Source: a virus. From it: 27,065 nucleotides of DNA. Below, in pieces: positions 7,843 through 26,869 of this stretch (position 1 is the stretch's first letter; the number at the start of each line of letters is the position of its first letter). Under the pieces are notes generated by a model, which saw only the letters and a program-made list of their open reading frames with translations, had not been told where the DNA came from and made no database searches. The stretch spans positions 1-27,065 of IMG/VR virus record IMGVR_UViG_3300047551_001464. One strand, given 5' to 3'. A program made the position numbers and the translations under genes.

Positions 7843-7850
7843 GATTGCGT

Positions 7851-8195
7851 ATGAACAACACCACTCAAACGGCTTCTCCCTCCCGCACTCCCGCCATCGG
7901 CGACATCCTCGCCTCTGAATGGGGCTACGAGCAGACGAATGTTGACTTCTATCTGGTCACAAAAGTCACCAAAGCCTCGGTAGTCCTCGCTCACATGGTC
8001 GCCAGAAAGGTCAGCCAAGGCTACGGCCAAGGAATCACGACTCCGACCTCTGAGTTCGTCGGGCCGAGAATCACTCGCCGATTCAAGACCTACACCAACT
8101 TCAAGGGTGAAGCGACTTACGGCGTGAAAATCAATTCCTACGAATCGGCTCGTCCTTGGAACGGTTCGCCCGTGCGCTACACGGATGGGTACTGA
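7851..8195 (+). CDS. small phage protein with WGYEQTNVDFY motif
   Basis: This is a 114-residue protein. The segment GDILASEWGYEQTNVDFYLV (about residues 18-37) resembles a small domain I associate with hypothetical proteins of phages and mobile elements, with a W-G-Y-x-Q-T-N-V-x-F-Y core; its function is not known to me. The rest is basic and beta-rich, ending in GSPVRYTDGY. The ATG at 7851 is preferred to an in-frame TTG at 7845. It sits at the expected transcription start of the promoter at 7814-7842 and has no ribosome-binding site, so it is probably translated from a leaderless mRNA. Confidence 0.75.
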   Translation: MNNTTQTASPSRTPAIGDILASEWGYEQTNVDFYLVTKVTKASVVLAHMVARKVSQGYGQGITTPTSEFVGPRITRRFKTYTNFKGEATYGVKINSYESARPWNGSPVRYTDGY

Positions 8196-8440: not shown

Positions 8441-9082
8441 ATGAATAGTTTCGTGAAGTGTCTTTGTATCATGTCCGCATCCACATCCGCATTCGGCACG
8501 GAGGTTGTTGAGTTCGGAGGTATGCTCAAGTATGACTCGCCACTACCGCCGTCATTGATGTTGGGTGCATTTGAACGCAAAAGCGTTGCCGTAATGTTCC
8601 CAGAGCGGTCACGATTCCTGACGGGCACACAAGAGGTTGACATCAGCCAACCTGGTCTCTACAACCAATCAACCGATTTGACTTTCGGGGCGATTCCTGC
8701 GGGCATGGTTGTCAGGAGTTTCATTGTCCATGCCGACAGCCTTGGAATCTCATCAACGGTGTATGAGGGATGGGTAAGGTTTGACGGCCCCGTTCTTGGA
8801 ATCATCTCGGGGACACCGATGCTCAACACCACGAACCCCCGATTCGGTGGGGAGTTCACCACATACTCAACGATTACCTCACGAGGCGTTGACTTGACAC
8901 CGACTGTGGGTCAGGACTTCATCACACTTTCGCCCGACCGAAAATTGGTCACATTCCGATTGGCCGTAAGCGAAACGATGGATGAGTTCCGTATTCTTAC
9001 AGAGGCTTCTCCCGTTCCCTCTGTTGGAACATCGGTTCTGACTTTGGCGGGACTTCTCACGGCAACCCGTAGAAGGCGTTAA
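8441..9082 (+). CDS. secreted protein with PEP-CTERM-like sorting tail
   Basis: This is a 213-residue protein. The N-terminus (MNSFVKCLCIMSASTSAFG) looks like a short signal peptide. The middle (residues about 70-185) is beta-rich and includes FIVHADSLGI, WVRFDGPVLGIISG and a conserved-looking RGVDL segment. This layout is typical of bacterial PEP-CTERM proteins in which an HxD segment precedes a V-x-F-D-G-x-x-LGII stretch. The C-terminus SPVPSVGTSVLTLAGLLTAT followed by RRRR is a PEP-CTERM-like signal. Such proteins are exported, cut and anchored by a host exosortase. The ribosome-binding site AAGGA precedes the ATG. It was probably acquired from an exosortase-bearing host. The next gene carries a similar tail. 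Confidence 0.78.
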   Translation: MNSFVKCLCIMSASTSAFGTEVVEFGGMLKYDSPLPPSLMLGAFERKSVAVMFPERSRFLTGTQEVDISQPGLYNQSTDLTFGAIPAGMVVRSFIVHADSLGISSTVYEGWVRFDGPVLGIISGTPMLNTTNPRFGGEFTTYSTITSRGVDLTPTVGQDFITLSPDRKLVTFRLAVSETMDEFRILTEASPVPSVGTSVLTLAGLLTATRRRR

Positions 9083-9084
9083 TC

Positions 9085-9303
9085 ATGAACGACTTCAACA
9101 CATCCGATATCCTCGTCCACACATCGTTTGAGACCGTGCGACTCTACAACGCTTACGAGCGCATAGAGCCGTGGAGCGTCAGGCACATCTCGCCCACGCC
9201 CATGTTTGAGAACTATTACGGGTGCGCCGTTCCTGCGCCCTCGGCCTTGGTGGTGTTGGCACTCTCGTTCATGCTCTGTCGCCGTAGACGAAAGTCTACT
9301 TGA
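9085..9303 (+). CDS. short protein with PEP-CTERM-like sorting tail
   Basis: This is a 72-residue protein. Residues 49-72 (VPAPSALVVLALSFMLC, RRRRKST) form a textbook PEP-CTERM-like tail: VP-x-P, an 11-12 residue hydrophobic helix and four arginines. The first 48 residues are polar and show no signal peptide, which is odd for an exosortase substrate. It may be a truncated gene or may insert by its C-terminal helix alone. It starts 2 nt after the upstream gene and is probably coupled to it. Its 3' end overlaps the convergent membrane gene on the other strand by 8 bp, marking the border between the plus and minus blocks. Confidence 0.7.
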   Translation: MNDFNTSDILVHTSFETVRLYNAYERIEPWSVRHISPTPMFENYYGCAVPAPSALVVLALSFMLCRRRRKST

Positions 9304-10078: not shown

Positions 10079-10085
10079 TATTTAG
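10079..10085 (-). promoter_or_regulatory. late-type promoter CTAAATA
   Basis: The minus strand reads ACTAAATAAT over the stop codon of the upstream gene, 55 nt before the holin-like gene. It matches the other CTAAATA elements of the window and seven of the eight T4 late octamer positions at best. Confidence 0.5.
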
Positions 10086-10768
10086 TTTTCACGGACGATG
10101 AGGAAGTCATCCTCACCGAGCGTCATCACGCCCTCAATGATGACCCATCCGTCTTTCTGGAAGGACTGGATGTCCTTGGCGGGAATCACATCAAGGTCTC
10201 GGTCATCAGCACCCCACATGATGCGTGAACCAGGCATGGAAGCCTTACGCTTACGCAGGTTGCCGAAGTTAGTGATGAAGGACGGGGGCACACGATACTT
10301 ACGGAGCATTTCCGCCGTACGCTTGTTTTGTTCCTCTTTGCCGATGCTCTGGCGTTGATGGGCGACAACCGTGGCGGCGGTTTCGTCCAGTTCGGTCTCT
10401 TCGGCAATCTTCTTGCCCAGAGCCAAAACCTTACCCGCCTTACCCTTACCCAAAGCCGCCTTGAGAGCGTCATCAAACGAGTTGTAATCGCCGATGGCGA
10501 ACGGCTCTTTAGGGTTATACCAGAGGGTCATCTTGCTTGTGCCCTTGCGAGGTGCGATGTAGAACATCTTCTTCGGGCCGACATCGGTCTTGGAGCCGCC
10601 GACATCAAACTCCTGACCTACGGCGGGCTTCAGTTCCTCGGTGATTTGGGAGCCATCCAACAAGTCAACTGGTTCAAGGTTCGCCATGGCCGCTTCGGTG
10701 GAGCCGTTGAGCGGTGGCTTGCTGTACTTCTTGGCTTCTTCAATAATTTGGCGTTGAAAGTGATACAT
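10082..10768 (-). CDS. putative internal head protein with capsid-targeting-like N-terminus
   Basis: This is a 228-residue protein. The first residues MYHFQRQIIEEAKKY match the layout of T4 internal-protein targeting sequences: a short aromatic and amphipathic segment ending in I-E-E before A, a candidate prohead-protease cut after residue 11. Residues 123-129 (EETELDE) repeat an acidic motif found in four proteins of this block and could be a second cut site. The rest includes a small GTSKMTLWYNP domain of unknown fold and a basic segment (LRKRK). The ribosome-binding site TAAGGAACC contains the stop of the upstream gene. The likely role is packaging inside the capsid and delivery with the DNA; the activity is unknown. 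Confidence 0.65.
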   Translation of the reverse strand: MYHFQRQIIEEAKKYSKPPLNGSTEAAMANLEPVDLLDGSQITEELKPAVGQEFDVGGSKTDVGPKKMFYIAPRKGTSKMTLWYNPKEPFAIGDYNSFDDALKAALGKGKAGKVLALGKKIAEETELDETAATVVAHQRQSIGKEEQNKRTAEMLRKYRVPPSFITNFGNLRKRKASMPGSRIMWGADDRDLDVIPAKDIQSFQKDGWVIIEGVMTLGEDDFLIVREN

Positions 10769-10777
10769 CGTGGTTCC

Positions 10778-12412
10778 TTAAAAGCGTTTAGGTTCGGGAT
10801 ACCTCTGGTGCATGGTGAGGTCCAACTTCTTGAGGACTGGTTTTCCATCATCGCCCTTGTCCACGGCGATATAAGCCTCCATGCGCTTGATATTGGCGAA
10901 GCGCACATCACGATGGTCGTTGTACATGGGCTTCATGAAAACCTCATAGTAAAGACCGTTTTTCAAAGCCCAGTCCGAGTCAGGTGTTCCCTTGACAACT
11001 GCACGATACTCAAAGGTTTCGTTCTTATACTTGAACTGGCCAAGAATCGGGTTCTGTTTCGCTTGGGACTTTGCCCAGTTCGGAGTGACCGCCTCGTTGG
11101 TCTGAATCTCCGTGCTTTCGGTGGGGTACTTCCTGTGGCCTGTGATGGGCCACTTCTCGTACACGGGCTTGCCACCTTCGCCCTCGTCCACGGCGACCTG
11201 AACGACCGTGGCCTTGACGATGGCGAAGCGAACATCTCGGTAGTCGTTCCACACGGGACGGAGGAAGATTTCATGCGTCATGCCGTGGCTCAACGCCCAG
11301 TCGGAACCAGGTGAAGCCCCCTTGACGATGGCACGATATTCAAAGGTGTTGCCCTTGTGCTTGAACTGACCGAGAATCGGGTGCTGTTTCCGTTGAGCGT
11401 ATGCCCAGTTCGGAGCATATGCTTCATTGGTCTCGGTCTCTTCCTTGACAATCTGAAGGTCGCCCGCCTTGATTGCCTTGGCGAGGTTCGTGCTGATAAT
11501 CTTACCTGAACGCTTGGCTCCGCTTGTGAGGACATACAACTTGTCGCCACCTGGCAGGGAGGGATTTGCGTGCGCTCCCTGTACGCTCATGTTGTAAGTC
11601 TTGCCTGTTTCCAGATTGGCGAACTTGACGGGCTTCACGACCTTGACCGAACGAACACCGTTGAGAATGTTGGCGGCTTCTTTGCCAGTCATCTCCTCAA
11701 GGTTCTCAACTTCCTCGTTCAACTTCTTGCCTGTAATGATGTCGTTTCTGGCCGTGTTCCAACCCTCGCCAGACTTGCCGCTTGGAACATCCTGCTTGCT
11801 GATGGCTCTGCCACCAACGACAAGGCGAAGGTATCCACGATAACCGACACCCCATTGAGAGTCATGCTTCTTGTCCTTCTTCAGGGCGAGTTTCGTGGAG
11901 ACTTCAAGGTTGTGCTTGGCGATGTCCTGAAAGTCCGACTCGCTGATGGCCTCGGCTTCAACCTCGGCCTCTTCCTGCACCGACTCGTTGAGGGCGATGA
12001 TGATGGCCTGACCCTTGTGGTCTTTCCATGTGCGCTCCGCCTTGTTTCCAAGTTTGATGCCCTTGAAGTCGTATCCATTGAACTCATACTTGCCGATGTC
12101 GGCAATCTTGACAATCTTGATTTCCGACCCCTCGCCAGTAAGACCACCACGGGCCGCACCTGGGCCTGTGGGCTTGGTGATGTCAAGAATCATGGCATGG
12201 CCGCCCAAGCGGTTTCTGAGAACATTCAGGAGTTTGCGGTAGGTTCCGACATCAAGTCCCGAATTGAGGACAAGTTTCTCGGCTCCCTTCATCACATTCA
12301 CGCCCTCCACGATGAAGTCCCGACACTCTTCGGGCAGGTTTTGGGTTTCTTTGGGGGAGAGTTTGCCGTGCTTGGCGGCTTCGTTCAGAAGGCGGCGTTG
12401 ATACTCATACAT
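10778..12412 (-). CDS. putative internal head protein with tandem repeats
   Basis: This is a 544-residue protein. The N-terminus MYEYQRRLLNEAAKHG closely follows the T4 capsid-targeting pattern, with L-N-E before A, giving a predicted cut after residue 11. The C-terminal 217 residues are two copies of a ~108-residue unit (328-437 and 438-544), each starting TNEAxxPNWA and containing P-I-L-G-Q-F and DVRFA. Acidic motifs EEVENLEE, EETETNEA and STEIQTNEA separate the units and could be further protease sites. The middle has NLETGKTYNMSVQGAH and a VLTSGAKRSG segment. A perfect TATAAATA lies upstream (12444-12451). Function after injection is unknown. Confidence 0.65.
   Translation of the reverse strand: MYEYQRRLLNEAAKHGKLSPKETQNLPEECRDFIVEGVNVMKGAEKLVLNSGLDVGTYRKLLNVLRNRLGGHAMILDITKPTGPGAARGGLTGEGSEIKIVKIADIGKYEFNGYDFKGIKLGNKAERTWKDHKGQAIIIALNESVQEEAEVEAEAISESDFQDIAKHNLEVSTKLALKKDKKHDSQWGVGYRGYLRLVVGGRAISKQDVPSGKSGEGWNTARNDIITGKKLNEEVENLEEMTGKEAANILNGVRSVKVVKPVKFANLETGKTYNMSVQGAHANPSLPGGDKLYVLTSGAKRSGKIISTNLAKAIKAGDLQIVKEETETNEAYAPNWAYAQRKQHPILGQFKHKGNTFEYRAIVKGASPGSDWALSHGMTHEIFLRPVWNDYRDVRFAIVKATVVQVAVDEGEGGKPVYEKWPITGHRKYPTESTEIQTNEAVTPNWAKSQAKQNPILGQFKYKNETFEYRAVVKGTPDSDWALKNGLYYEVFMKPMYNDHRDVRFANIKRMEAYIAVDKGDDGKPVLKKLDLTMHQRYPEPKRF
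10781..11431 (-). repeat. two tandem ~108-residue protein repeats
   Basis: Copy 1 is at 11102-11431 and copy 2 at 10781-11101, inside the 544-residue gene. Both encode NEAxxPNWAxxQxKQxPILG, an EYRA(I/V)VKG strand, DWAL, NDxRDVRFA and a VD-x-G-x-GGKP or DDGKP loop. The DNA copies are clearly diverged, so the duplication is old and kept by selection on the protein. Confidence 0.85.
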
Positions 12413-12443
12413 TAGCGGGGACTCCGTAAATTGTTATAAGGCT

Positions 12444-12451
12444 ATTTATAA
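12444..12451 (-). promoter_or_regulatory. T4-type late promoter TATAAATA
   Basis: A perfect TATAAATA octamer on the minus strand, 31 nt before the 544-residue gene, is the T4 late promoter core. Short arms TAAGG and CCTTA flank it. Confidence 0.7.
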
Positions 12452-12458
12452 GAAAACC

Positions 12459-12959
12459 TTACTGGGGAGCGGACAGGTAGGCGTTGAAGATGGACTGGAT
12501 TGCTTCCTTTGCCTTATCCACGGAGGCATCGGGAATCCTCTCGGTGGCGACCTCTTTGGGCGGAATCACGCCGACCGTATAACCGTCATAACCAATACCG
12601 ATGGGGCCTTGGTCGGCCTCGCCATCCTCGCCTTCCTTGAAGTTGGAATGAAACCAGTTGGCGTATTGGGTGCGAGTCTCCTCGGTGGTTCCTTGGGCAA
12701 CCACGGCGTTGGAGATGCAACCCTGACCCTCCACCCAAACACCATCGGCGATGGTCAGGGCCTGAGACATCTCTTCGTCCCACACGACGATGTAGCGGCA
12801 GAGTTCCTTGCCCGCCTCATTCTCGGCGGTCTCGTATAACTCAAACAGGCACTTGCCCTTGTACTTTTGGTTGAGACGAATCTCGTCCTCCTGCGTGGGG
12901 GACGGATTGAAATAGATTGGATTTTCTTCGCTTGTAAGCAAAACAAGACCTTCACTCAT
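12459..12959 (-). CDS. hypothetical late protein
   Basis: This is a 166-residue acidic protein of unknown function. It begins MSEGLVLLTSEENPIYFNPS and continues with beta-strand-like segments (CRYIVVWDEEM, ALTIADGVWVEGQG). It has a Gly-rich GPIGIGYDGYTVGVIPP stretch (about residues 119-135) and a helical end (KAKEAIQSIFNAYL). It lacks the capsid-targeting N-terminus of its neighbours. The ribosome-binding site AGGAGG is strong, and a CATAAATA late-type element lies 19 nt upstream of the start, so it is probably an abundant late or virion product. Confidence 0.72.
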   Translation of the reverse strand: MSEGLVLLTSEENPIYFNPSPTQEDEIRLNQKYKGKCLFELYETAENEAGKELCRYIVVWDEEMSQALTIADGVWVEGQGCISNAVVAQGTTEETRTQYANWFHSNFKEGEDGEADQGPIGIGYDGYTVGVIPPKEVATERIPDASVDKAKEAIQSIFNAYLSAPQ

Positions 12960-12978
12960 AACGAGCCTCCTTTGGCTT

Positions 12979-12986
12979 TATTTATG
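12979..12986 (-). promoter_or_regulatory. late-type promoter CATAAATA
   Basis: The minus strand carries CATAAATA, one mismatch from TATAAATA, between tRNA-Val and the 166-residue gene, with AGGAGG following before the start codon. Confidence 0.6.
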
Positions 12987-13004
12987 AGGGAATGTCTTGG
13001 GTAA

Positions 13005-13077
13005 TACTCCCTGAGGGATTTGAACCCCCGACTTCCACCGTGTAAAGGTGGCACTCTGGCCGCTGAGTTAAGGGAGC
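13005..13077 (-). tRNA. tRNA-Val (anticodon UAC)
   Basis: On the minus strand: acceptor GCTCCCT/AGGGAGT (terminal G-T pair), D-stem ACTC/GAGT, anticodon stem CCACC/GGTGG with loop TTTACAC (UAC), variable AAGTC, T-stem GGGGG/CCCTC with loop TTCAAAT, discriminator A. CCA is not encoded. It follows the small membrane gene on the same strand and is probably cut from its transcript. Confidence 0.9.
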
Positions 13078-13085
13078 GGGTTTGC

Positions 13086-13328
13086 TTATTCGCCGTCAGC
13101 GAGTTTGTTCGCCGACTTCTGAAGGTCAGGGACAGCCTTCAAGAGGGCGACAAATCCCCAGAAAGCACCGATGACCCACGATGTCTGCCAGAACGAGAAC
13201 CCCTGTTGGTTCATCAACCAGTCGGATACCCATAACCAGAAAGCGGATATGAGCATTCCTAATGTGGCTGTGATGCCGAATGCGAGGAGGATGGCCGTGA
13301 CGAACGCTGAGAGTTTGGATATGTTCAT
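13086..13328 (-). CDS. small two-helix membrane protein
   Basis: This is an 80-residue protein. Two hydrophobic helices (about residues 6-30, FVTAILLAFGITATLGMLISAFWLW in outline, and 48-64, SWVIGAFWGFVALL) predict two membrane passes, followed by a short soluble helix (VPDLQKSANKLADGE). The ATG at 13328 is chosen over an in-frame TTG two codons upstream because it sits 7 nt after the -10 box of a strong promoter and there is no ribosome-binding site. This is the minus-strand counterpart of the leaderless genes. tRNA-Val follows 8 nt after the stop. The function is unknown; lysis control or superinfection immunity are possible. Confidence 0.7.
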   Translation of the reverse strand: MNISKLSAFVTAILLAFGITATLGMLISAFWLWVSDWLMNQQGFSFWQTSWVIGAFWGFVALLKAVPDLQKSANKLADGE

Positions 13329-13334
13329 ACCCAA

Positions 13335-13363
13335 AGATTATCACACCTGCCCGCCCGTGTCAA
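13335..13363 (-). promoter_or_regulatory. sigma-70 promoter, leaderless type
   Basis: On the minus strand TTGACA (13363-13358), a 17-nt spacer and TAATCT (13340-13335), the same boxes and spacing as the tRNA-Leu promoter. The start codon at 13328 begins 7 nt after the -10 box. It would transcribe the two-helix membrane protein and tRNA-Val. Confidence 0.75.
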
Positions 13364-13373
13364 GTCCGTTTTT

Positions 13374-14999
13374 TCACAAACCCGTGAAAGCCTGAAGAGA
13401 TTTGTCAAGGGGTTTGTTAGGGTCAAACGGCCCGTTCACACTCAAGAATGACTTCATGAATGACCCGCTGTAAAGGTCAAGGTGGGCGGGATGCGGAACC
13501 TTGATATTGGTCCAAAACATGGATGATTTGAGACTCTTGATATCAGTAGCGGGAATTGAGTGGTAGTTCTTGATGGCGGCATTCCACGCCTGCTTGGAGG
13601 GGAACTTACCCGCCCTGACCTTGGCGATGCCGTCATCATAAATCTTCTTGAGTTCTTCGGCCACGGAGTATATGCGGGTGTAGAACCTCTTGCGGAACTT
13701 CTCGTCTTTCAACATGAAGTCGGTGAAGCCTCCCTTGTTTGACAAGAACAGGTTGAACACATACAGGAACAGCCTGCCGATAAGAGTCTTACCCTGACGC
13801 ACGAAGATGTTAAGCATCCTCTGGGAATCTTCTTTGCGAGGATTGTGCGGACTCTGAGTCCAGTCCGTGTAATATTTGATTTTCTCGGCTGACACATTGT
13901 CCAACAACCGAAAGGTGATGCTCTCAATCTTGTCGGCGATGAGTCCGTTCCATGCGGCTTGATACGGCTTCTTGACGATATACTTTCCACCCACTTCATC
14001 CATCTTGTCCTCCAAAGCGGCGAAGGCCACGCCGTTGTTCGGAATACAGGTCATGAAGTCACGCATGGAGGCTCGGGCCGATTCCGCTATTTCTTGGAAG
14101 TGAGCGTTCCATTCTACATCAGACTTGAAGTATGTGCCGTAGTCCTTATCTTGCTTCCATATCGCTTCTCTACCCGCAATGACATTCTTTGGCTCAACTC
14201 CCGCCATGCGGATGTCATCAAGGAAGTGGGCGTACTCATGAATGTAGACGGACTTTGCGCTTCGGAGATTACCGTTTGCGATGGCGACCCAATTCTTCAC
14301 GGCCTTACGCATGAGGTTTGGCTTGTCCCGATTTTGAACCAAGTATTTGACAAGAGGTAGCACAGCCTCGGGGTCAAAGCAAGTGAAACCGCTCAAATGA
14401 ATTTCGGCGGATGTTGATGTGGCATAGGATGTCTTCGGCGTATAGTACAGCCCAATCGCACTATCCTTTTCCGAATTCGTTTGGGTGTTCATGGACGAGT
14501 GAAGTTTCATGATTATGCCCGGTGGGGAACCAGGCATGAAGATTTTCGCCAGTTGCTTGTTCGTGATGCTCTTTGGAAGCACGATGAGGTCGGTGTTGTG
14601 CTTAAAAACCATAATGCTACGATTGACACCGATGATTTTGGATTGTTGAACCATGATTGAATCATCAAGTTTTTTAGACATCGCATCATTCATCAGTTCT
14701 TTAACATTAAGCCCGAGCAGGCGGTCATCCCAATCGTCCTCTGTGTATCTGCTGTGTGGAATCAGATTTCCACGCCCAGAGTAGATATAGATGTCATTGC
14801 GGAGATTCATTTCGTCATCGGAAAGCCCAGCATCGTTCTTCTGAAGAATCTTGATGAAGTGGTCACCCATCTTCTCAATGGCATCAATCAAAATCTCGCT
14901 GAAGATGGTGTATGACTTCTCGGCGGCTTGACCCATTTCTTGGTCAAACTTACGCTCAAGCAACAGGGCTTCGCTGAACTCACCAAAAGATACGGGCAT
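13374..14999 (-). CDS. putative virion-packaged zinc metalloprotease
   Basis: This is a 541-residue protein. HEYAH at residues 254-258 is a HExxH zinc-protease motif within SVYIHEYAHFLDD, and VEWNAHFQEIAE (295-306) supplies glutamates about 40 residues later, as expected for the third ligand of gluzincin-like enzymes. It therefore probably cuts proteins or peptides using zinc. The N-terminus FGEFSEALLLER resembles capsid-targeting sequences with an E before A at position 10. The gene overlaps no other and begins one base after the upstream gene, in a run of similar N-termini. The rest has no recognised domain. A virion protease delivered into the host, or a protease acting during assembly, are the two main options. 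Confidence 0.68.
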   Translation of the reverse strand: MPVSFGEFSEALLLERKFDQEMGQAAEKSYTIFSEILIDAIEKMGDHFIKILQKNDAGLSDDEMNLRNDIYIYSGRGNLIPHSRYTEDDWDDRLLGLNVKELMNDAMSKKLDDSIMVQQSKIIGVNRSIMVFKHNTDLIVLPKSITNKQLAKIFMPGSPPGIIMKLHSSMNTQTNSEKDSAIGLYYTPKTSYATSTSAEIHLSGFTCFDPEAVLPLVKYLVQNRDKPNLMRKAVKNWVAIANGNLRSAKSVYIHEYAHFLDDIRMAGVEPKNVIAGREAIWKQDKDYGTYFKSDVEWNAHFQEIAESARASMRDFMTCIPNNGVAFAALEDKMDEVGGKYIVKKPYQAAWNGLIADKIESITFRLLDNVSAEKIKYYTDWTQSPHNPRKEDSQRMLNIFVRQGKTLIGRLFLYVFNLFLSNKGGFTDFMLKDEKFRKRFYTRIYSVAEELKKIYDDGIAKVRAGKFPSKQAWNAAIKNYHSIPATDIKSLKSSMFWTNIKVPHPAHLDLYSGSFMKSFLSVNGPFDPNKPLDKSLQAFTGL

Positions 15000-15000
15000 A

Positions 15001-16092
15001 TCAGTCCTTCTTCTTTGCCTTGGGCGCAGGTGCAGGAGCAGGAGCGGAAGAGGCGGCGGGTGGTTTTTCCTTGGTCAGGAACTGCTGACGAATCTTCGCC
15101 ACATTCTCATTCGTGATGAGAGCCAAGAGCATAAGGCGTAATTCATGAACATTCTGCATCGAGAAACTCTCGGTGAGGTTCGTCGTGATGTGACTGATTT
15201 CCTCTTCGGTCAGTTCAAGTCCGAACTCGGTCTCCTCGGTCAGACTGTCCATGTTGAGAATGACAGCGGCCTGAGAGCCGACAGGGACATAACCCGCCGT
15301 AATAGCCTTATCGTTCTTCGCAATCGGAATCACCTTGGCGAAGGTCGCACCCGCCTTGACATTCTTACGGAGCAACGCCGAAAGCGTCTTGGCGAGGTCT
15401 TCGGCCTTGGGCTTGTTCATGAAGCCAAGATAGAAACTCTTGCCCACCTTCTTGATGGGAATGTCTCTGGCGAATCCCAGTTTGACAAGGAGCGTGCGAA
15501 GGCGTTCCTCAAACTGGACGGGGCTGTAGCCACGAATGGGCGCACCCGTCATCATGCCTGACTGAACGGCAACAGCCTCAATAAGCGTGCCCTTCTTCAC
15601 ATCATCTTGTGCCTGCTTCCACCCCATGGAGAACTTCTCCATTGACTTTTGGTCCTTGGCCGAAGGTGGCGTGGCAGGACGGGACTTCTCGTTGGAACTT
15701 CCCGCCATATAGGAAGCGAGGTACGAGCGATAGCCCATGCCCCACATTCCACCATGGTTCAAATTGCCCTTGGACGCAAGGGCTTGCGATTTGTCAAGGT
15801 TCTTTTGAGCCACGCTCTTGTTCTCATCCAAGACTTCCTCGGGAATGGGCTTCAACTTGTACTTGACCAGAAGGTCATTCAACTGCTTGATTAGTCCCTT
15901 CTGCTTGGGCGAAGCGGCCATGGTTCTCATGGACTGAATGAAGAGTTTGTGGGCGAGTCTTCGGTCTTCGGGACTCATGACCTTCCACGGGTCATCAAAC
16001 GCCTCGGTCACCTCCTCATAGAGGTTGAGGTCGGTCGGGGCGTATCCCCACTTCATGGCTTCACGGGCGAGTTTCTTATCCCAGTTGTACAT
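15001..16092 (-). CDS. putative internal head protein with capsid-targeting-like N-terminus
   Basis: This is a 363-residue protein. The N-terminus MYNWDKKLAREAMKWGY matches the pattern of the block, with a candidate cut between E11 and A12. The following GYAPTDLNLYEEV resembles GYKSEEAEFYEQE of the gene just upstream, so the two are related at their ends. It contains a Met-Gly-rich segment (NHGGMWGMGYRSYLA), a motif EETEFGLELTEEE of the acidic type seen across the block, and a C-terminal Pro/Ala linker (PAPAPAPKAKKKD). The ribosome-binding site TAAGGAACC overlaps the upstream stop. The role is likely inside the capsid; biochemical activity is unknown. Confidence 0.65.
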   Translation of the reverse strand: MYNWDKKLAREAMKWGYAPTDLNLYEEVTEAFDDPWKVMSPEDRRLAHKLFIQSMRTMAASPKQKGLIKQLNDLLVKYKLKPIPEEVLDENKSVAQKNLDKSQALASKGNLNHGGMWGMGYRSYLASYMAGSSNEKSRPATPPSAKDQKSMEKFSMGWKQAQDDVKKGTLIEAVAVQSGMMTGAPIRGYSPVQFEERLRTLLVKLGFARDIPIKKVGKSFYLGFMNKPKAEDLAKTLSALLRKNVKAGATFAKVIPIAKNDKAITAGYVPVGSQAAVILNMDSLTEETEFGLELTEEEISHITTNLTESFSMQNVHELRLMLLALITNENVAKIRQQFLTKEKPPAASSAPAPAPAPKAKKKD

Positions 16093-16101
16093 ATCGGTTC
16101 C

Positions 16102-16527
16102 TTAGATTTTGTTCGGGTTCTGGATGAGCCATTGAGCGATGACATCCAATGTCTTGCCTGGAGGGGCGAACAGATTCGGAATGTTGGCGGTGGGGGTGAC
16201 ATGGGGCTTGGCACTCTCAGGCCACACATTGAGGACACGGAGATTGTATCCCCCGTCTTGGGGCTTACTCTTGTCCATAACATACAGGCCAGATGGGGTA
16301 GTCGTGGAGCGAGTCTTGACTCCCGCCTTGACGAATCCAATCATGCCCACATTCGGATAGTGAACCTCCCACCCCTTGAAACTGAAGGTCTTGAAGGGTT
16401 CAAACTTCACGCCCTTAATGGTCTTCGCCTGCTCATCCAACTCCTGCTCATAGAACTCGGCTTCTTCGGACTTGTATCCGAACTTGGCCGCTTCACGGAG
16501 AATCTTGTTTTGCCAGTTTTGCCACAT
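16102..16527 (-). CDS. putative internal head protein with capsid-targeting-like N-terminus
   Basis: This is a 141-residue protein. MWQNWQNKILREAAKFGYK has a candidate cut L-R-E before A (E12/A13), then YEQELDEQA, possibly a second site. The remainder is a small domain with beta-strand character (FKTFSFKGWEVHYPNVGMIG, PSGLYVMDKSK) of unknown fold, ending WLIQNPNKI. The ribosome-binding site AAGGAACCC overlaps the end of the upstream gene. The N-terminal paralogy with the 363-residue protein suggests duplication followed by fusion to different bodies. Confidence 0.65.
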   Translation of the reverse strand: MWQNWQNKILREAAKFGYKSEEAEFYEQELDEQAKTIKGVKFEPFKTFSFKGWEVHYPNVGMIGFVKAGVKTRSTTTPSGLYVMDKSKPQDGGYNLRVLNVWPESAKPHVTPTANIPNLFAPPGKTLDVIAQWLIQNPNKI

Positions 16528-16538
16528 GGTTGGGTTCC

Positions 16539-17288
16539 TTATTTCCTTGTGCCTTCTTCAAAGTCTTCAAACGCCTCACCAATCGCTCCTGGCGTATGCG
16601 TGAGGTAGTCGTGAATCGTCGTGATGTAATCGTCTGCGAGGGTAATCTTGGATTGAACCCATGGCTCCAGTTTAGAGTTGGGCTGAATCATCTTCAGGAG
16701 AGCCGATGCCTTGGCCGCCGTATTCTTGAGTTGGGTCAGGGCCATCTCGCCGTCTGGGTCCGTGGCCTCCACCTGAGCGGGGGCGATTTCCTGAACATTC
16801 TCGGTCTCTTCCTTCTTCATCTTTTTCATACGCTTGTGAGCGTCAAGAGCCAGTTGACGCATCTTGAGGTCGTAACGAGCCATGACCTTGTTGGCGGCAA
16901 TCTTGAGATTTTCGGGATGCTCGCCCTTGAACTTGGACGGCTTGCCACCCATGAGGATATACTGAGCCTCATCCTCTGTCATCTTGGACATCAAATCGCC
17001 GATGGTTCCTTCTTCAAGGTTCTCGGTCTCTTCTCCCATGCCCTTCTTGCCCATCTTCCATGACTGAACCATGAGTTCGTGCATGATTTTGTCGGCGGCT
17101 TTTTCGCCCACCAGTTTCTTGAGAGTGTGATAGCGAGACTCAAGGTCTCCGTTCGGAAGGGGGTGCTTCTTGATGTATGCGTCAAGGTCGGCCATGGTCT
17201 TGATGCCGACCTTCTTCAGTTTGTCAAGGACTGATGCTTCGTCAAGATTGATTCCCTCTGCCAGATTCGCCAGACGATGTGCTTTCAT
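16539..17288 (-). CDS. putative internal head protein with several cleavage-like sites
   Basis: This is a 249-residue mostly helical, charged protein. MKAHRLANLAEGINLDEAS contains two sites in a row that fit the T4 prohead-protease rule (L-A-E before G, L-D-E before A). Two more acidic motifs, EETENLEEGT (about residues 86-95) and EETENVQEIA (about 160-169), divide it into three segments of similar size. The segment between has lysine-rich helices (KRMKKMKKEE). The ribosome-binding site AAGGAT lies at the end of the upstream gene. It could be a scaffold or core-type protein as well as an injected one; T4 core proteins are also cleaved to small peptides. Confidence 0.62.
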   Translation of the reverse strand: MKAHRLANLAEGINLDEASVLDKLKKVGIKTMADLDAYIKKHPLPNGDLESRYHTLKKLVGEKAADKIMHELMVQSWKMGKKGMGEETENLEEGTIGDLMSKMTEDEAQYILMGGKPSKFKGEHPENLKIAANKVMARYDLKMRQLALDAHKRMKKMKKEETENVQEIAPAQVEATDPDGEMALTQLKNTAAKASALLKMIQPNSKLEPWVQSKITLADDYITTIHDYLTHTPGAIGEAFEDFEEGTRK

Positions 17289-17297
17289 TTCGTATCC

Positions 17298-17663
17298 TTA
17301 AAGTTTGGTGTGAAGGCCCGTATTAGCGGTGAACACCGACTGAAGTTGGTCGGCGTAAATCATGCTGAGGTTCTTGACGGTTTTCGCTTGGTTGGCCCTC
17401 AGGCTGATGAACTTCATGGTGTATGTGTCGCCACTATCCAAGGTGATTTCCACATAGTTGATTCCCGATATGGCCTTGGGCAACTTGAAACTGAGGGTCT
17501 TGCCCCCGTTGCTTTTCAACAGGTTCTTTGCGCCAGTCATGACGATGAACCTCTTTCCACCCAGTTGTTGGAGAATGGTTTCGGCGACATCTTCATTCAG
17601 GTTGACATCGGAAATCTGGTTGGCCTGTTCCACCAAGTTCCGAAGGGTGTTGCGGTCAAGCAT
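17298..17663 (-). CDS. small protein, first gene of the late capsid-type operon
   Basis: This is a 121-residue protein. The ATG at 17663 is chosen because it follows GGAGAG, while a longer frame from 17696 would overlap the late promoter at 17681-17688. MLDRNTLRNLVEQA has an E at position 12 preceded by L-V, similar in position to the cut sites of the other members though followed by Q. The body (GGKRFIVMTGAKNLL, SFKLPKAISGINYVEITL, then ADQLQSVFTANTGL) resembles a small domain I associate with phage and plasmid hypothetical proteins. Its function is unknown. Being first behind a perfect late promoter, it should be strongly expressed. Confidence 0.7.
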   Translation of the reverse strand: MLDRNTLRNLVEQANQISDVNLNEDVAETILQQLGGKRFIVMTGAKNLLKSNGGKTLSFKLPKAISGINYVEITLDSGDTYTMKFISLRANQAKTVKNLSMIYADQLQSVFTANTGLHTKL

Positions 17664-17680
17664 GGGACTCTCCAGTATCC

Positions 17681-17688
17681 TATTTATA
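17681..17688 (-). promoter_or_regulatory. T4-type late promoter TATAAATA
   Basis: A perfect TATAAATA on the minus strand lies 18 nt before the ATG at 17663. It overlaps the T-tract of the hsp20 terminator. It should drive the run of genes down to about 13374. Confidence 0.75.
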
Positions 17689-17715
17689 AAAAGCAAAGGG
17701 GGCCTTGCGACCCCC
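17688..17715 (-). terminator. intrinsic terminator of hsp20
   Basis: On the minus strand GGGGGTC, a GCAA loop and GGCCCCC form a 7-bp stem with a GNRA tetraloop, followed by TTTGCTTTTT. This is a strong rho-independent terminator, 25 nt after the hsp20 stop. Its T-run continues directly into the TATAAATA late promoter. Confidence 0.85.
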
Positions 17716-17739
17716 TATGCCGAACCCTATCCACGAAAA

Positions 17740-18204
17740 TCACTTCACAGCGATGGGAACCGAACGCTTCTTTTTAGCCTCGGGAATCAGTCGCTTGAGA
17801 TAGACACGCAGGATGCCGTCCGAAAGTTCGGAACTCTCAACCTCGGTGTCTTCCGACAGCGTGAACATCTTTTGAAAGTCACGGCGGGCAATGCCTCGGT
17901 GAATGAACTCGGCATCTTTCGGAGAGGACTTTCTACCCTCAATCAACAGGATGCCGTTCTGTGTGGTCACGCTGAGTTCTTCGGACTTGAAGCCCGCAAC
18001 GGCCACCTCAATCGCCTGCTTCTCATCCGAGATTCTTAGGATGTCGTATGGGGGGTTGGATGTGGTCTGTTTGGCACAGGACTCCAGAGAGTCCATCAGA
18101 CGAATCAGGTATTCGTCAATGCCTACCCCGTAGGCGTGCTTCTTGGAAAAGGTTTCAAGAAGCGATGGGAAAAGAGCATACCCGAAATGGTTACCAGTTG
18201 TCAT
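17740..18204 (-). CDS. hsp20: small heat shock protein, Hsp20/IbpA type
   Basis: This 154-residue chaperone holds unfolding proteins as an ATP-independent oligomer in the cytoplasm. The alpha-crystallin domain spans about residues 51-140: PPYDILRISD, then AIEVAVAGFKSEELSV, GIARRDFQKMFTL (104-116) and G-x-L-R-V-x-L-x-R. The tail PEAKKKRSVPIAV carries the I/V-x-I/V-type motif that links subunits. The order and the PEAKK sequence match bacterial IbpA and the Hsp20 proteins of T4-like marine phages. A strong AAGGAGG lies upstream, and an intrinsic terminator follows, so it is a single-gene unit. The leader can form structures that may control translation. In T4-like phages its role is unproven; helping virion protein folding is likely. 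Confidence 0.92.
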   Translation of the reverse strand: MTTGNHFGYALFPSLLETFSKKHAYGVGIDEYLIRLMDSLESCAKQTTSNPPYDILRISDEKQAIEVAVAGFKSEELSVTTQNGILLIEGRKSSPKDAEFIHRGIARRDFQKMFTLSEDTEVESSELSDGILRVYLKRLIPEAKKKRSVPIAVK

Positions 18205-18296
18205 GTAGCACCTCCTTTGGTAAAGCGAGACACTTGGCGTAAGGCCCCTTCGGGAGGCGACCTTACACCCGTATATATGCCACGGCCCCGTTTATA
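18205..18296 (-). promoter_or_regulatory. structured leader of hsp20
   Basis: Reading the minus strand, a late-like TATAAACG (18296-18289) is followed by a hairpin with outer stem GTAAGG/CCTTAC and inner CCC/GGG around position 18253. CGCCTCC (18259-18253) can alternatively pair over 7 bp with the ribosome-binding site GGAGGTG (18215-18209). This permits a structure that hides the start of hsp20. The promoter is uncertain. Confidence 0.4.
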
Positions 18297-18322
18297 ATCT
18301 TTTGAATTTGGGGATTTTGGGC

Positions 18323-18350
18323 TTGACAGGGGGCAGGGGTGGGGTATGAT
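18323..18350 (+). promoter_or_regulatory. sigma-70 promoter for tRNA-Lys unit
   Basis: TTGACA (18323-18328), a 16-nt spacer and TATGAT (18345-18350). Transcription should begin near 18357, just before the tRNA at 18365, and continue through the small genes that follow. It diverges from hsp20. Confidence 0.78.
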
Positions 18351-18364
18351 GTAGCCATGTAGAC

Positions 18365-18437
18365 GCTCTCGTAACTCAGTTGGTAGAGTATCGGACTTTT
18401 AATCCGTTAGTCGTGGGTTCAAGTCCCGCCGAGAGCA
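18365..18437 (+). tRNA. tRNA-Lys (anticodon UUU)
   Basis: Acceptor GCTCTCG/CGAGAGC is a perfect 7 bp. D-stem ACTC/GAGT, anticodon stem TCGGA/TCCGT with loop CTTTTAA (UUU), variable TAGTC, T-stem GTGGG/CCCGC with loop TTCAAGT, discriminator A. CCA is not encoded. First element of its transcript. Confidence 0.93.
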
Positions 18438-20699: not shown

Positions 20700-20784
20700 A
20701 CCAATAAGCCCAACGGACAAGAGAGTGAGTTCCTCACCCAAAAGTCCGATGAAGTCAATGATGCCGACGAAGCCAAAGCCTTAA
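20656..20784 (+). CDS. 42-residue very basic Pro/Ser/Lys-rich peptide
   Basis: A short frame encodes MPRRQSVVRPKRPSKPISPT followed by a second half with SSSPKSPMKSMMPTKPKP. It has 12 Lys or Arg, one Asp and nine or ten Pro. A perfect GGAGG lies 6 nt before the ATG. It overlaps the 85-residue gene by 44 bases in another frame and ends in overlap with the convergent tail gene. The S-P-K and S-P-x-K pieces recall DNA-binding tails of histone H1-like proteins. A DNA- or RNA-binding role, perhaps in DNA condensation, is an inference. Confidence 0.6.
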   Translation: MPRRQSVVRPKRPSKPISPTDKRVSSSPKSPMKSMMPTKPKP

Positions 20785-21326
20785 AGGTTGTCCACCGTAA
20801 ATGTGTCAAATACGAATGTCACCGTAGCGGTCAAGACGGACGGTTCACTTTCTGCATGACTCAAGGAAAATCCAGACAACTGAGTGGGAATCATGTTGCG
20901 GTAAGTGATCCTTTTGAAGGGGTTCTTTTTGTTATTGAGTAACAGCATCACCCCGTCCGATGGCCCAGCAAGATGCTCGGGAACGATTTCCTTGAAGTCA
21001 CGATACGGTGCGCCTGAGCGAAACCATTTGACCATTTCCATGTAGTTCTTGAACTCCTCGTCTATGATGAATCGGATGGACACATCCGTTGATGCCGAAC
21101 CGCCTGGTATTTTCAAAGGTGTGGCGGTAATGTAATCATAACTTATGGGATTGGCCGACGATGAGGGCGTGGTGATGGATGTGCAAAAGTATGTGACATT
21201 CGGAACCTTCTTCAGCAAAAATCTGAAGTTGGTATTCAGAGCGAGATTGGTGTTGATAGGCGTGGCCTTCAACATACCATACTCGTCTAACGAGGGAATG
21301 TAATTTTTCGGATTCGTGCCTGCCAT
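20781..21326 (-). CDS. gp19-like tail tube paralog B
   Basis: This is a 181-residue protein. The pattern NFRFLLKKVPNVTYFCTSIT near residue 32, V-x-I-R-F-I-I-D-E-E-F-x-N-Y-x-E-M-V-x-W (about 83-102) and LLNNKKNPFKRITYRNM (about 129-145) match tail tube proteins of T4-like phages (gp19; usual length about 163). It would form, or start, the inner tube through which DNA passes. It is a diverged paralog of the gene at 26324 and has the same length. It may be the tube and the other the tube initiator, or the reverse. The ribosome-binding site AGGATAAG precedes the ATG. It is last in the tail module. Confidence 0.82.
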   Translation of the reverse strand: MAGTNPKNYIPSLDEYGMLKATPINTNLALNTNFRFLLKKVPNVTYFCTSITTPSSSANPISYDYITATPLKIPGGSASTDVSIRFIIDEEFKNYMEMVKWFRSGAPYRDFKEIVPEHLAGPSDGVMLLLNNKKNPFKRITYRNMIPTQLSGFSLSHAESEPSVLTATVTFVFDTFTVDNL

Positions 21327-21893: not shown

Positions 21894-24800
21894 TTAGTAT
21901 GAGAAAAATCTTCTGATAGCCCCTTCGAACGGAGGGGGCGGTGTTATTTCAAGCGTAAACCCATCGGTTATTGTTTGATTCACAGCCGATGATGCGTCCG
22001 TAACAGTAATCGTGTATGTTACGGGTTCGCTGACAACAGTAGGCGTTCCCGATATTTCACCTGTAGATGTATTTAACGACAACCCAGACGGCAAAGACGG
22101 GCTGATGCTATAAACCAACGGAGTCCTACCGCCACTTGCGGTGATCGGTGTAAACGATGTCAGCACTTTATTCACTTCACTTGTGACATTTGAAGTGTTG
22201 ACAGAGTATGTAAGGATCTCATTGACTCTCAGCGTAAAAGACCTATTGGTTCCAGTTTGGGGCGGTGTCAGCGAGTCTTCCACCGAGACGGTGTGCGTGA
22301 CCACCGAATAGGCGGATGTCGGCGTTCCTGTGATTCCTCCCGTAGATGTGTTGAAGAACAATCCGTTCGGGAGAGCGGGGCTTATGCCGTACACCAGATT
22401 TCCTATACCACCAGAACCAGAAACTGGTATGACTGGAGTTATAAGGTTGCCTCTGATATATTCCAATGTCGAACTATCAAGGGATGTTGTGATCGGTGTG
22501 GTGGCCTGAACCACCAGATCGAATGAAGTTACTCCAGTTTGGCCAACTCCATCCGCCGCCTTCACATCAATTTGAAATGTTCCAGTACTTATACTATCGG
22601 AAGGGGTTCCCGACACCACACCGTTCGTAGACGATATGGAAAGGTCGGACGGCAATTGATATGGAGATGTCACCGATATGCTGTAACTGATATCACCTTC
22701 GCCTCCGCTTCCAAGTATCGGTTGAGTCGGAGTCATGGGGACTCTCTTCATAACCGTAACGGTGGATTGAAGAACACTCACACTAACCACGGGATAGGAT
22801 TCGGCCACTTGAAGGTTGAAAGACTTGGATGATGTTCGGCTGATCGCATCCGTAAATGTAACCGTATGCGAAGTCGGTGTCTGAATCGTAGTCGGAGTTC
22901 CTGATATTTTGCCCGTTGAGGTCGAGAAATTCACCCCTGATGGCAGGGCGGGTGATACGCTATAAACCTGAGGAGAGCGACCTCCCGCACCAGTAACGGG
23001 AGCAAATCCGTCAGATGGAGTTATGGCTGTTCCCTGTCTCAAGGACACACTCGGTCTGTTCAGATTTGTCTCAATCGGATTATCCACGGTAACATTCACA
23101 GTGAAAGGCAATTGTGTTGACGGCGATTGGCTGTCTCTTACAAAGAATGTGTATACGGTTGTTGCTTGGGTTTGTGTTGGAATTCCCTGTATGGATATGG
23201 GTTCGGGTACGGATTTGGTTCCCAGACCGTTCACTATCAAACCCGTAGGTAATGTTCCTGACCGTGTTATGGTATAGGGAGGAACTCCATTCGAATAGGT
23301 TGCAATTGTGGTCGGGGATGGAGTTACGACATTGTTTTTTGTCAGGTTGAATGTCGTGTTTGAAATAGAGACGCTGAGGGGCGTTGGGTTTGCTAAGGTT
23401 GCTGTGATAGTTCTATCAATATTTGTAAAAGCGTCTGAAACACGAATAGTCAGTGTTCTTGATGCTACCTGAGATGCGTCATTTGGAGTTCCGCTGATTA
23501 CACCTGTGGATGTGTCTAATGATAATCCTGTGAACAAACTTCCATTCACAAGAGTGTATCTGATAGATCCTTCTCCACCCGATGCAACAATAACTTGGGT
23601 TGGAGTCATTTGCTCCAAAGGTGTCAGTTGTAAATTATTTACTTGAGTAATAGTTAGCGGAGTTGGGGGTGTTGGTTCGACATAACTTGGATCGAAGTAA
23701 CTAAATGGAGGAAATGGTCTTGGCAATTGATAATTACACCGTGGCCAATTATAATATCCTCCAAATAACGAAAAATTTCCATATCGAACCATATCGGATC
23801 TATAAAGTCTGGTATGACTGGTGTGTGCGTGAGATGCATTCAATCCGCCTAATGTTGGTGCGCCAGTATACCAATTGGCTAATGTTTCTGATGCTCTTTC
23901 CAACATTGAATATTTAAAACACCTTGCAAGAAGTTGCGTTGAATAGTAACCAGAATCACTATCAAACCATTTTTTGCTGTCTAAAACATAATTTTTAACA
24001 CCAATTAAGGTCATCGCAAGTGGATCAAATGAGTTCCAAGTATAAAAGTCGTCATTTGGAAATTGATGTGTACTTGGACTCGTGGGTAGAGGAGGGCTTC
24101 CAAAATCGGGGCAGTGTGTGCAATTAAAATTATTCTTAGGTGGGTATAAAGGTGGTTGCGGTTTATGCCAACTTATTACTGAAGTCGGATTTCCTGTATT
24201 CGGTCCAGTCAAGCAAGACTTAATTTTCGAATCATTCATTCTATACGCTATCGCACCATAATTAAAAACCGATCTGGTTACATTTGCTGATAATGATGGA
24301 TTTGTATTAGGAAGTGTCACACCAGGACAACTGACTTCTATATTGACACCTATATTTGATGTTGATGTATTGATGCTACTAACACGGCTTGGTCCATAAG
24401 AACTCAAAGCCGAATTCAATAAACTGGTGGTTGGATAAATAAGATTGGAATAAGATGCGATATTAATTGGTTGATTTACCGATGTGTAAAAATAATTATT
24501 TAAAGTTGGATTAGCATAGTCGTATGAACTGTTGTATACGGAATTTGTTCCGCCCGCACCTGTAGATCCGCCGCAATATTCGTCTTTAGTATGAAGAGTA
24601 ACATATCCTGAAACTTGACCAATAAATGCGGTGCATCCTCCGGGAAGATCCGTCAAACTACTCACACTTCCGCCTTGAGTCGTAAGATAATAATACGAAG
24701 TCGCCCCCGGATAAGGAAAGGGGTGAACGCTTTTTGTGCTACTTAAATTTGGTGCGATATTAGATGAACCCGTAAAATGTCCTGTGATCGAGTTCAGTGA

Positions 24801-26323: not shown

Positions 26324-26869
26324 TTACAATGAATCTAAGTCATATGAACTGAACGCAAATGTCGCTGTCGCCGTGGTCGCTGTCGCATCCGTAAGTGCGC
26401 TGTTGTATTCGATACTGGTTATACCCGTAATCATCAGACCGTTGAATCTGAATCGAGCGACTGGGTTTTTCTTGTTTGACAGAATCAGCAGATGTCCCAC
26501 ATTTGACAGCAGGTTGATGCTGGTGTCGATTCCCGTCTTGAAAAAGTCCTCGAAAACCAAGGTTGACTTATACCAATCGACCATTTGTTGGTAGTTGGAA
26601 TAGTCCTCATTGACGATGAACTTGACTGTCATATCACCGTGTGTGATTTTGTGACCGAAAAATTTAAGGGCGGGAGCCATTCTCATGGGCACACGAATCG
26701 GCTCACAAGTCATGTCTGGAAAAGAGACCTCTGTGCAGAAGTAAACCCCCGAACGAACCTTCGGTATCATCAACCGAAAGTTTGATGCGAAGGATGGGTT
26801 CGTGTTTTCGGGGGTGTTTTGTAAAGCACCCGCAACACGATCCTGTGGAATCATTGGTTTCTCTGCCAT
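26324..26869 (-). CDS. gp19-like tail tube paralog A
   Basis: This is a 181-residue protein. NFRLMIPKVRSGVYFCTEVS (about 30-49), MTVKFIVNEDYSNYQQMVDW (about 80-99) and LSNKKNPVARFRFNGLMIT (about 130-148) match T4-like tail tube proteins. It shares FxVNEDYxNY-type, SNKKNP and YFC patterns with the gene at 20781. It is first in the tail transcript. The start codon lies 6 nt after a CTAAATA late-type promoter with no ribosome-binding site, so it is probably made from a leaderless late message, unusual for a structural protein needed in many copies. Confidence 0.82.
   Translation of the reverse strand: MAEKPMIPQDRVAGALQNTPENTNPSFASNFRLMIPKVRSGVYFCTEVSFPDMTCEPIRVPMRMAPALKFFGHKITHGDMTVKFIVNEDYSNYQQMVDWYKSTLVFEDFFKTGIDTSINLLSNVGHLLILSNKKNPVARFRFNGLMITGITSIEYNSALTDATATTATATFAFSSYDLDSL

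Follow-up and report, generated by a model that had tools for sequence, protein, structure and literature searches.

The window analysed here is the whole 27,065-nt fragment (positions 1 to 27,065) of IMG/VR record IMGVR_UViG_3300047551_001464, from an uncultured T4-like phage that is probably aquatic. On its minus strand, a block of eight genes runs from position 17663 to 10082 (Table 1). In seven of the eight, the encoded protein has a leader with Glu as one of residues 10-12, and in six of these leaders the next residue is Ala or Gly. The seven N-termini had been singled out in an initial annotation of the sequence, and all were found again at their positions. They were compared with the capsid-targeting sequences (CTSs) of phage T4, where the cut follows L/I-x-E and propeptides measure 7-65 residues, or 10-19 in the internal proteins (PMC9026906). 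The nearest relative, contig G001, carries the same block.

At the sites first named, P3 is strictly Leu or Ile in five of the seven leaders, FSE and ARE being looser. Those sites were retained for five proteins; in the 249-residue protein (MKAHRLANLAE↓G, the arrow marking a predicted cut) and the 121-residue protein (MLDRNTLRNLVE↓Q) the cuts appear to lie further in. Cleavage of the former is probably at the second site, INLDE17↓A, and not at LAE↓G, since its relatives have NSMNE↓A (G001) and ITNLTE↓A with the first Glu missing (G012, a 177-kb relative). For the latter, the domain border of phrog_9437 points to VNLNE24↓D as the probable cut, and not LVE↓Q. The residue after the cut in this protein is Gln, or Asp at the preferred site; in the T4 record LFDE of Alt is likewise followed by Asp, a comparison made at the level of sequence. 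Leader stretches of the kind considered as CTS candidates are MYEYQRRLLNEA, MWQNWQNKILREA and MKAHRLANLAEGINLDEA.

Table 1. Genes and promoter cores of the block, and two further genes of the window; the arrow marks the predicted cut.
Feature	Position	Strand	Leader	Leader codons	Remarks
228-residue protein	10082..10768	(-)	MYHFQRQIIEE↓A	10768-10736	
544-residue modular protein	10778..12412	(-)	MYEYQRRLLNE↓A	12412-12380	
166-residue protein	12459..12959	(-)			no CTS-like start; own late-promoter core
541-residue protein	13374..14999	(-)	MPVSFGEFSE↓A	14999-14970	HEYAH and EWNAHFQ motifs
363-residue modular protein	15001..16092	(-)	MYNWDKKLARE↓A	16092-16060	
141-residue protein	16102..16527	(-)	MWQNWQNKILRE↓A	16527-16492	second candidate site ELDE32↓Q
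249-residue protein	16539..17288	(-)	MKAHRLANLAEGINLDE↓A	17288-17238	
121-residue protein	17298..17663	(-)	MLDRNTLRNLVEQANQISDVNLNE↓D		24-residue leader fused to phrog_9437 domain
Late promoter core TATAAATA	12443..12450	(-)			30 nt 5' of 544-residue gene
Late promoter core CATAAATA	12986-12979	(-)			19 nt 5' of 166-residue gene
Late promoter core TATAAATA	17681..17688	(-)			17 nt 5' of 121-residue gene
Hsp20 gene	17740..18204	(-)			adjoins block just upstream, likewise in G001; no CTS-like start
gp19-family tail tube protein	26324..26869	(-)			basis for placing the phage among T4-like myoviruses

Candidate sites are more frequent in the block than expected. The pattern [IL]xE↓[AGS] occurs 14 times, where composition shuffles give 5.0 and none of 1000 gave as many; its density is roughly three times that in the remaining window, and the G001 block has 13 against 4.6 in shuffles. 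Within residues 4-18, [ILVMFA]xE↓[AG] was found in 6 of 28 window proteins (1.0 in shuffles), all six of them products of block genes. A nine-column leader profile, trained on leaders of T4 and of other relatives with those of the window left out, placed block genes at ranks 1-4 and 6 among the window genes, and none of 5000 residue shuffles reached the block mean. A strict linker pattern, which matched only 18 times across all open reading frames against 3 times in one shuffle, was set aside. Over 107 codons, the window and G001 leaders differ at 34 synonymous and 12 non-synonymous sites, an excess of synonymous differences indicating that the leaders are conserved as protein.

The initial annotation had proposed searching for a gp21-like protease. 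Peptidase_S77 (PF03420, gp21-type) was above cut-off in all 16 relatives searched (E below 1e-34), including G001, where it lies about 8.5 kb from the block copy on the same contig. Candidate cleavage signals are also present elsewhere in the group: the N-terminal region of gp23, which in T4 contains FLTE↓A, has a conserved LKE↓S/A, and ITE↓A occurs in gp21 close to its own N-terminus. Canonical CTSs occur in G012 (MKSFIAFISE↓A, MVNFKSYISE↓A, MRRFRSFVSE↓G, MQSFRQHILE↓A and MKTFEEMME↓A), the last of these at the start of its homologue of the 541-residue protein. The start MNHYQRSILSE↓AVKYGG in relative G014 is intermediate between the T4-type CTSs and MYEYQRRLLNE↓AAKHGK of the window. An S-H9-1 protein with the C-terminal module of the 249-residue protein starts with MKTFKQLREE, a possible CTS. 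Separately, a P-loop protein (VVFMAGGAGSGKGYAISN) preceded by a possible CTS (MKDFSSFKQDLQE) is encoded in G012 (86051-87112) and G013 (28046-29143); each of the two genes has a late-promoter core ahead of it, and the product is possibly another packaged enzyme.

The T4-type late promoter core TATAAATA is present in two window copies and no more, both on the minus strand and ahead of block genes (Table 1). The core NATAAATA, described as the late promoter of S-PM2 (PMC2984593), stands 17-30 nt before block genes in three of its five window copies. In G001, eight of nine copies precede gene starts, where about 4% would be expected by chance, and the genes behind them are gp18, gp22, gp23, a lipoprotein-like gene and four block genes. 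As the same cores precede head genes, the block is predicted to be expressed late and made together with the head. A TTG at 17696 was considered as start of the 121-residue gene and ruled out because it lies upstream of the promoter, leaving the ATG at 17663.

The bodies behind the leaders are mostly unrelated to each other, as the initial annotation had it, with the exception of one module common to the 544- and 363-residue proteins (E about 1e-7). For most bodies no family emerged from profile searches of Pfam, PHROGs and PDB sequences, and Pfam had none above cut-off in the block proteins or in the CTS-led proteins of the relatives. The 544-residue protein has later sites at FIVE36↓G, NLEE240↓M, TNE330↓A and TNE440↓A, and one copy of a phrog_23785 module follows each of the last two. 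In the 363-residue protein a second site, EVTE30↓A, lies immediately ahead of a DPWxVMSPEDRR module, and LIE172↓A and LTE308↓S precede further modules. ETENLEE93↓G and ETENVQE167↓I form linkers between the modules of the 249-residue protein. The C-terminal module of the 228-residue protein is also found inside polyproteins of other phages (in the 824-residue protein of G012, in L034 and in L047).

Protein pieces behind the leaders appear to have been swapped between phages at predicted cut sites. The DPWxVMSPEDRR body follows three different leaders, EVTE↓A in the window, MQSFRQHILE↓A in G012 and MKCFSAYIRE↓G in G014. The phrog_9437 domain is a free-standing gene of about 100 residues in phiM12, KVP40, RcSpartan and others, starting with MTD or MTN in phiM12 and RcSpartan, where the window protein has 24 residues ending in LNE; in G014 it is internal to a CTS-led protein. 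The phrog_23785 module is free-standing in phiM12 (MSFAPF...), follows TNE↓AYAP and TNE↓AVTP in the 544-residue protein, and follows EEVDE↓AYA in the 824-residue protein of G012; the start Met of phiM12_312 aligns with the P1 Glu of TNE↓AYAP. A stand-alone window gene (7845-8195, phrog_37844) corresponds to the last module of a G014 protein, where it comes after ESVEVTE↓A. Differences between the window and G001 lie at similar joints. The middle of the 363-residue protein is missing from its 76-residue counterpart in G001, the joint being at LTE↓S / LDE↓S. The 249- and 107-residue pair is joined at NVQE↓I / SMNE↓A and the 228- and 146-residue pair at LDE↓T / QQEE↓A, and between the 544- and 559-residue proteins the last module is replaced near TNE↓A / DLAE↓G. 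When all pairs are taken together, 37% of internal alignment starts fall no more than five residues from a site, compared with a chance value of 18%; this comparison serves as a guide and not as a strict test because the alignments are non-independent.

We consider it likely that the products of the block are made late and reside inside the head of a T4-like phage, with CTS leaders, gp21-type cleavage, bodies delivered with the DNA and several multi-module precursors. The likeness to T4 internal proteins that the initial annotation proposed is well supported by the protease in the relatives, the late promoters, the canonical CTSs in the group, the shared body behind different leaders and the gain of a leader; the defining features that can be read from sequence are present, with the protease of the window phage itself deduced from relatives. 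The leaders measure 10-24 residues, and some have a second site around residues 30-36. Functioning as CTSs, they would bring the proteins into the prohead core, and a gp21-type protease would then cut after hydrophobic-x-Glu, usually before Ala, Gly or Ser. After trimming, the bodies would remain inside the head alongside the DNA and accompany it into the host. From these features we infer that the proteins are packaged, cleaved and injected and that they function in the new host.

Several block proteins and the 824-residue relative look like modular polyproteins, with modules that at xxE↓A joints are gained, lost or, in cultured phages, present as free-standing genes. The 824-residue protein (G012 81715-84189, minus strand; L059 1718-4189) consists of several small modules with KKEEVEVxE-type linkers and has a start without canonical CTS. 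Precursors of this kind may be strings of small exchangeable modules whose acidic linkers end in cut sites, so that they would also be cut between modules and one precursor would release several payload domains. The many internal sites in the 544- and 228-residue proteins and the 824-residue relative could also mark prohead core (scaffold-type) proteins that replace gp67/gp68-like ones and are shredded by the protease to peptides leaving the head, with nothing functional injected. T4 gp22 and other core proteins are indeed cut into pieces (PMC9026906), and cyanomyoviruses are without gp67/gp68 (PMC2984593). We regard such a scaffold role as improbable, as the sites tend toward domain joints, few lie past the leader in the 541-, 141- and 121-residue proteins, and the modules belong to domain families that other phages encode as genes of their own; bodies with HExxH or ADP-ribosyltransferase (ART)-like motifs are also ill-suited to a scaffold. 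A broader proposal, which we put forward tentatively and rate slightly short of probable, is that T4-like phages of the environment fill their heads with modular polyproteins made of small exchangeable payload domains and recurrent acidic linkers ending in a prohead-protease site. Head maturation would then free a mixed injected set, and free-standing genes would be converted to payloads by fusion at the sites. This modular-precursor form was not found in the literature searched, which does not show it to be unreported.

An arsenal of diverse effectors, as read in the initial annotation, is plausible, but only two catalytic assignments can be suggested, both from motifs. The HExxH (HEYAH) of the 541-residue protein is kept in four homologues with an invariant downstream Glu, suggesting a possible zinc metallopeptidase; it had no Pfam or PDB match. 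ART-like proteins with CTS-like leaders are encoded in G001 (17641-18408), G012 and G013, and none in the window. The leader is MRSFLEHLTE↓A in G001, and in G012 a long MRSFYDFSKSVPVTPVTPVNLKLDE↓A resembling MKTFKEFTSTTTPVSTITE↓A of T4 ipI. YRG, QSW[ST] and ExE are kept in four ART-like homologues, and on these motifs the G001 protein can be suggested to be ADP-ribosyltransferase-like. By analogy with T4 IPI and Alt, injected bodies may have counter-defence or take-over roles. Alternatively, the proteins may be packaged and cleaved but remain structural within the head, organising DNA or filling the vertex or portal; most bodies are without a recognisable enzymatic family, and T4 IPIII affects head assembly (PMC9026906). 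This we find unlikely, given that bodies are gained and lost between the window and G001, carry HExxH and ART-like motifs, and have homologues among non-structural genes in other phages.

Some observations weigh against head-internal, injected proteins. ARE↓A and FSE↓A deviate from strict L/I-x-E, LNE↓D deviates from A/G/S at P1', and the 363- and 121-residue leaders score poorly in the leader profile. The protease was not found in the 27-kb window fragment, which ends at the tail tube, short of the gp21 region; in G001, gp23 is directly upstream of the tail tube and gp21/gp22 come before gp23, so that a protease of the window phage itself is predicted from its relatives. No virion proteomics came to light for this phage or a close relative. 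The ART-like protein had no Pfam, PDB-sequence or fold match and its profile no meaningful alignment to T4 Alt, and fold models built from four-row alignments were of low confidence (predicted local distance difference test of 59 for the 541-residue protein and 62 for the ART-like one) with no PDB match. Over the whole of G012 the bare short N-terminal motif is weakly enriched (12 against 6.6), and by itself is therefore insufficient to identify a CTS. In four proteins (MWQ, MYN, MYE and MYH starts) similarity runs beyond the first Glu-Ala site (EAxKxG), so that the leader may exceed T4 CTS length or the likeness may partly reflect paralogy. The last two points would also suit unpackaged proteins, whose N-terminal likeness reflects paralogy in an amphipathic helix by which late proteins dock to one another or to a different target within the infected cell. 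That the same body follows the unrelated leaders MQSFRQHILE↓A and MKCFSAYIRE↓G, that an LNE-ending leader was added to a domain leaderless elsewhere, and that block and capsid genes have late-promoter motifs in common make this explanation quite unlikely.

As head-internal proteins, the block products would resemble T4 IPI, IPII, IPIII and Alt in several respects: the short leader ends in hydrophobic-x-Glu, with Ala, Gly or Ser as the usual next residue, the group has a gp21-family protease, the bodies are diverse, the genes have late promoters and a relative encodes an ART-like member. They differ in genome position, in bodies without sequence match, in larger multi-module precursors with sites at internal joints and in a second leader type (LANxxxxxLxE↓A), and the block is known here from sequence alone. 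Head proteins of phiKZ and SPN3US are likewise cut at a short x-x-Glu by a prohead protease (gp175 and gp245, respectively) and ejected with the DNA, and SPN3US gp53 and gp54 start with MANFVKSKLARE (PMC5694885), close to KLARE of the 363-residue leader. In these phages, a separate lineage, propeptides are mostly longer than 100 residues and the motif is S/A-x-E. Polyvalent proteins of phages and plasmids (Iyer et al., 2017, PMC5512222), such as P1 DarA and DdrB, combine several counter-host domains in one polypeptide; those of P1 are packaged into the head and in some cases cleaved. The block proteins are similar in having several domains per polypeptide, but have small modules and repeated acidic linkers with gp21-like sites; no known polyvalent domain exceeded the Pfam cut-off in the block or in the CTS-led proteins of the relatives, and they were not assigned to this class. 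The phrog_9437 and phrog_23785 genes of phiM12, KVP40, RcSpartan and others belong to the same domain families (about 35-50% identity) but stand free without leader, whereas in the window they are leader-led or mid-protein modules. Accounts of marine T4-like phages examined by term search (including PMC2984593) do not mention CTS-led proteins. Capsid-targeting leaders offer a simple sequence handle on proteins carried into cells before any gene expression. If the proposal is true, leaders, cut sites and module interchange would allow injected counter-defence or take-over proteins to be predicted from environmental phage genomes, and the polyprotein form would be a new way of packing many payloads under a single targeting tag.

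With respect to the source, the window tail tube is a phrog_45 member with about 27% identity to those of T4-like cyanophages, and the G001 major capsid protein matches its counterparts in the Pelagibacter phages Mosig and HTVC008M and in cyanophages at about 60% identity. Window proteins as queries gave a single block relative among viral contigs and none among genome contigs; gp23 as bait recovered 48 related loci and opened up the wider group. In the cultured relative HTVC008M no CTS-led cluster was seen among the genes checked (50 kb). Two gp19-family paralogues (20781-21326 and 26324-26869, minus strand) flank genes for a 183-residue protein and a 1473-residue protein (21894-26315, minus strand) with repeated GLSxNTSTGxISGTP segments, putatively Ig-like; the G001 counterpart of the latter is much shorter. 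Six tRNA genes (Leu, Ile, Arg, Val, Lys and Met) are spread over both strands of the window. Two plus-strand genes (8441-9082 and 9085-9303) encode proteins ending in a short hydrophobic stretch and an Arg-rich tail (VPSVGTSVLTLAGLLTATRRRR; APSALVVLALSFMLCRRRRKST), which resemble PEP-CTERM sorting signals and may hint at a host among Planctomycetota or Verrucomicrobiota. A relative's contig, L001, encodes (14361-14918, minus strand) a protein with the prepilin-like N-terminus MARRAFSLVEILIGVFVLALALVAVATVF.

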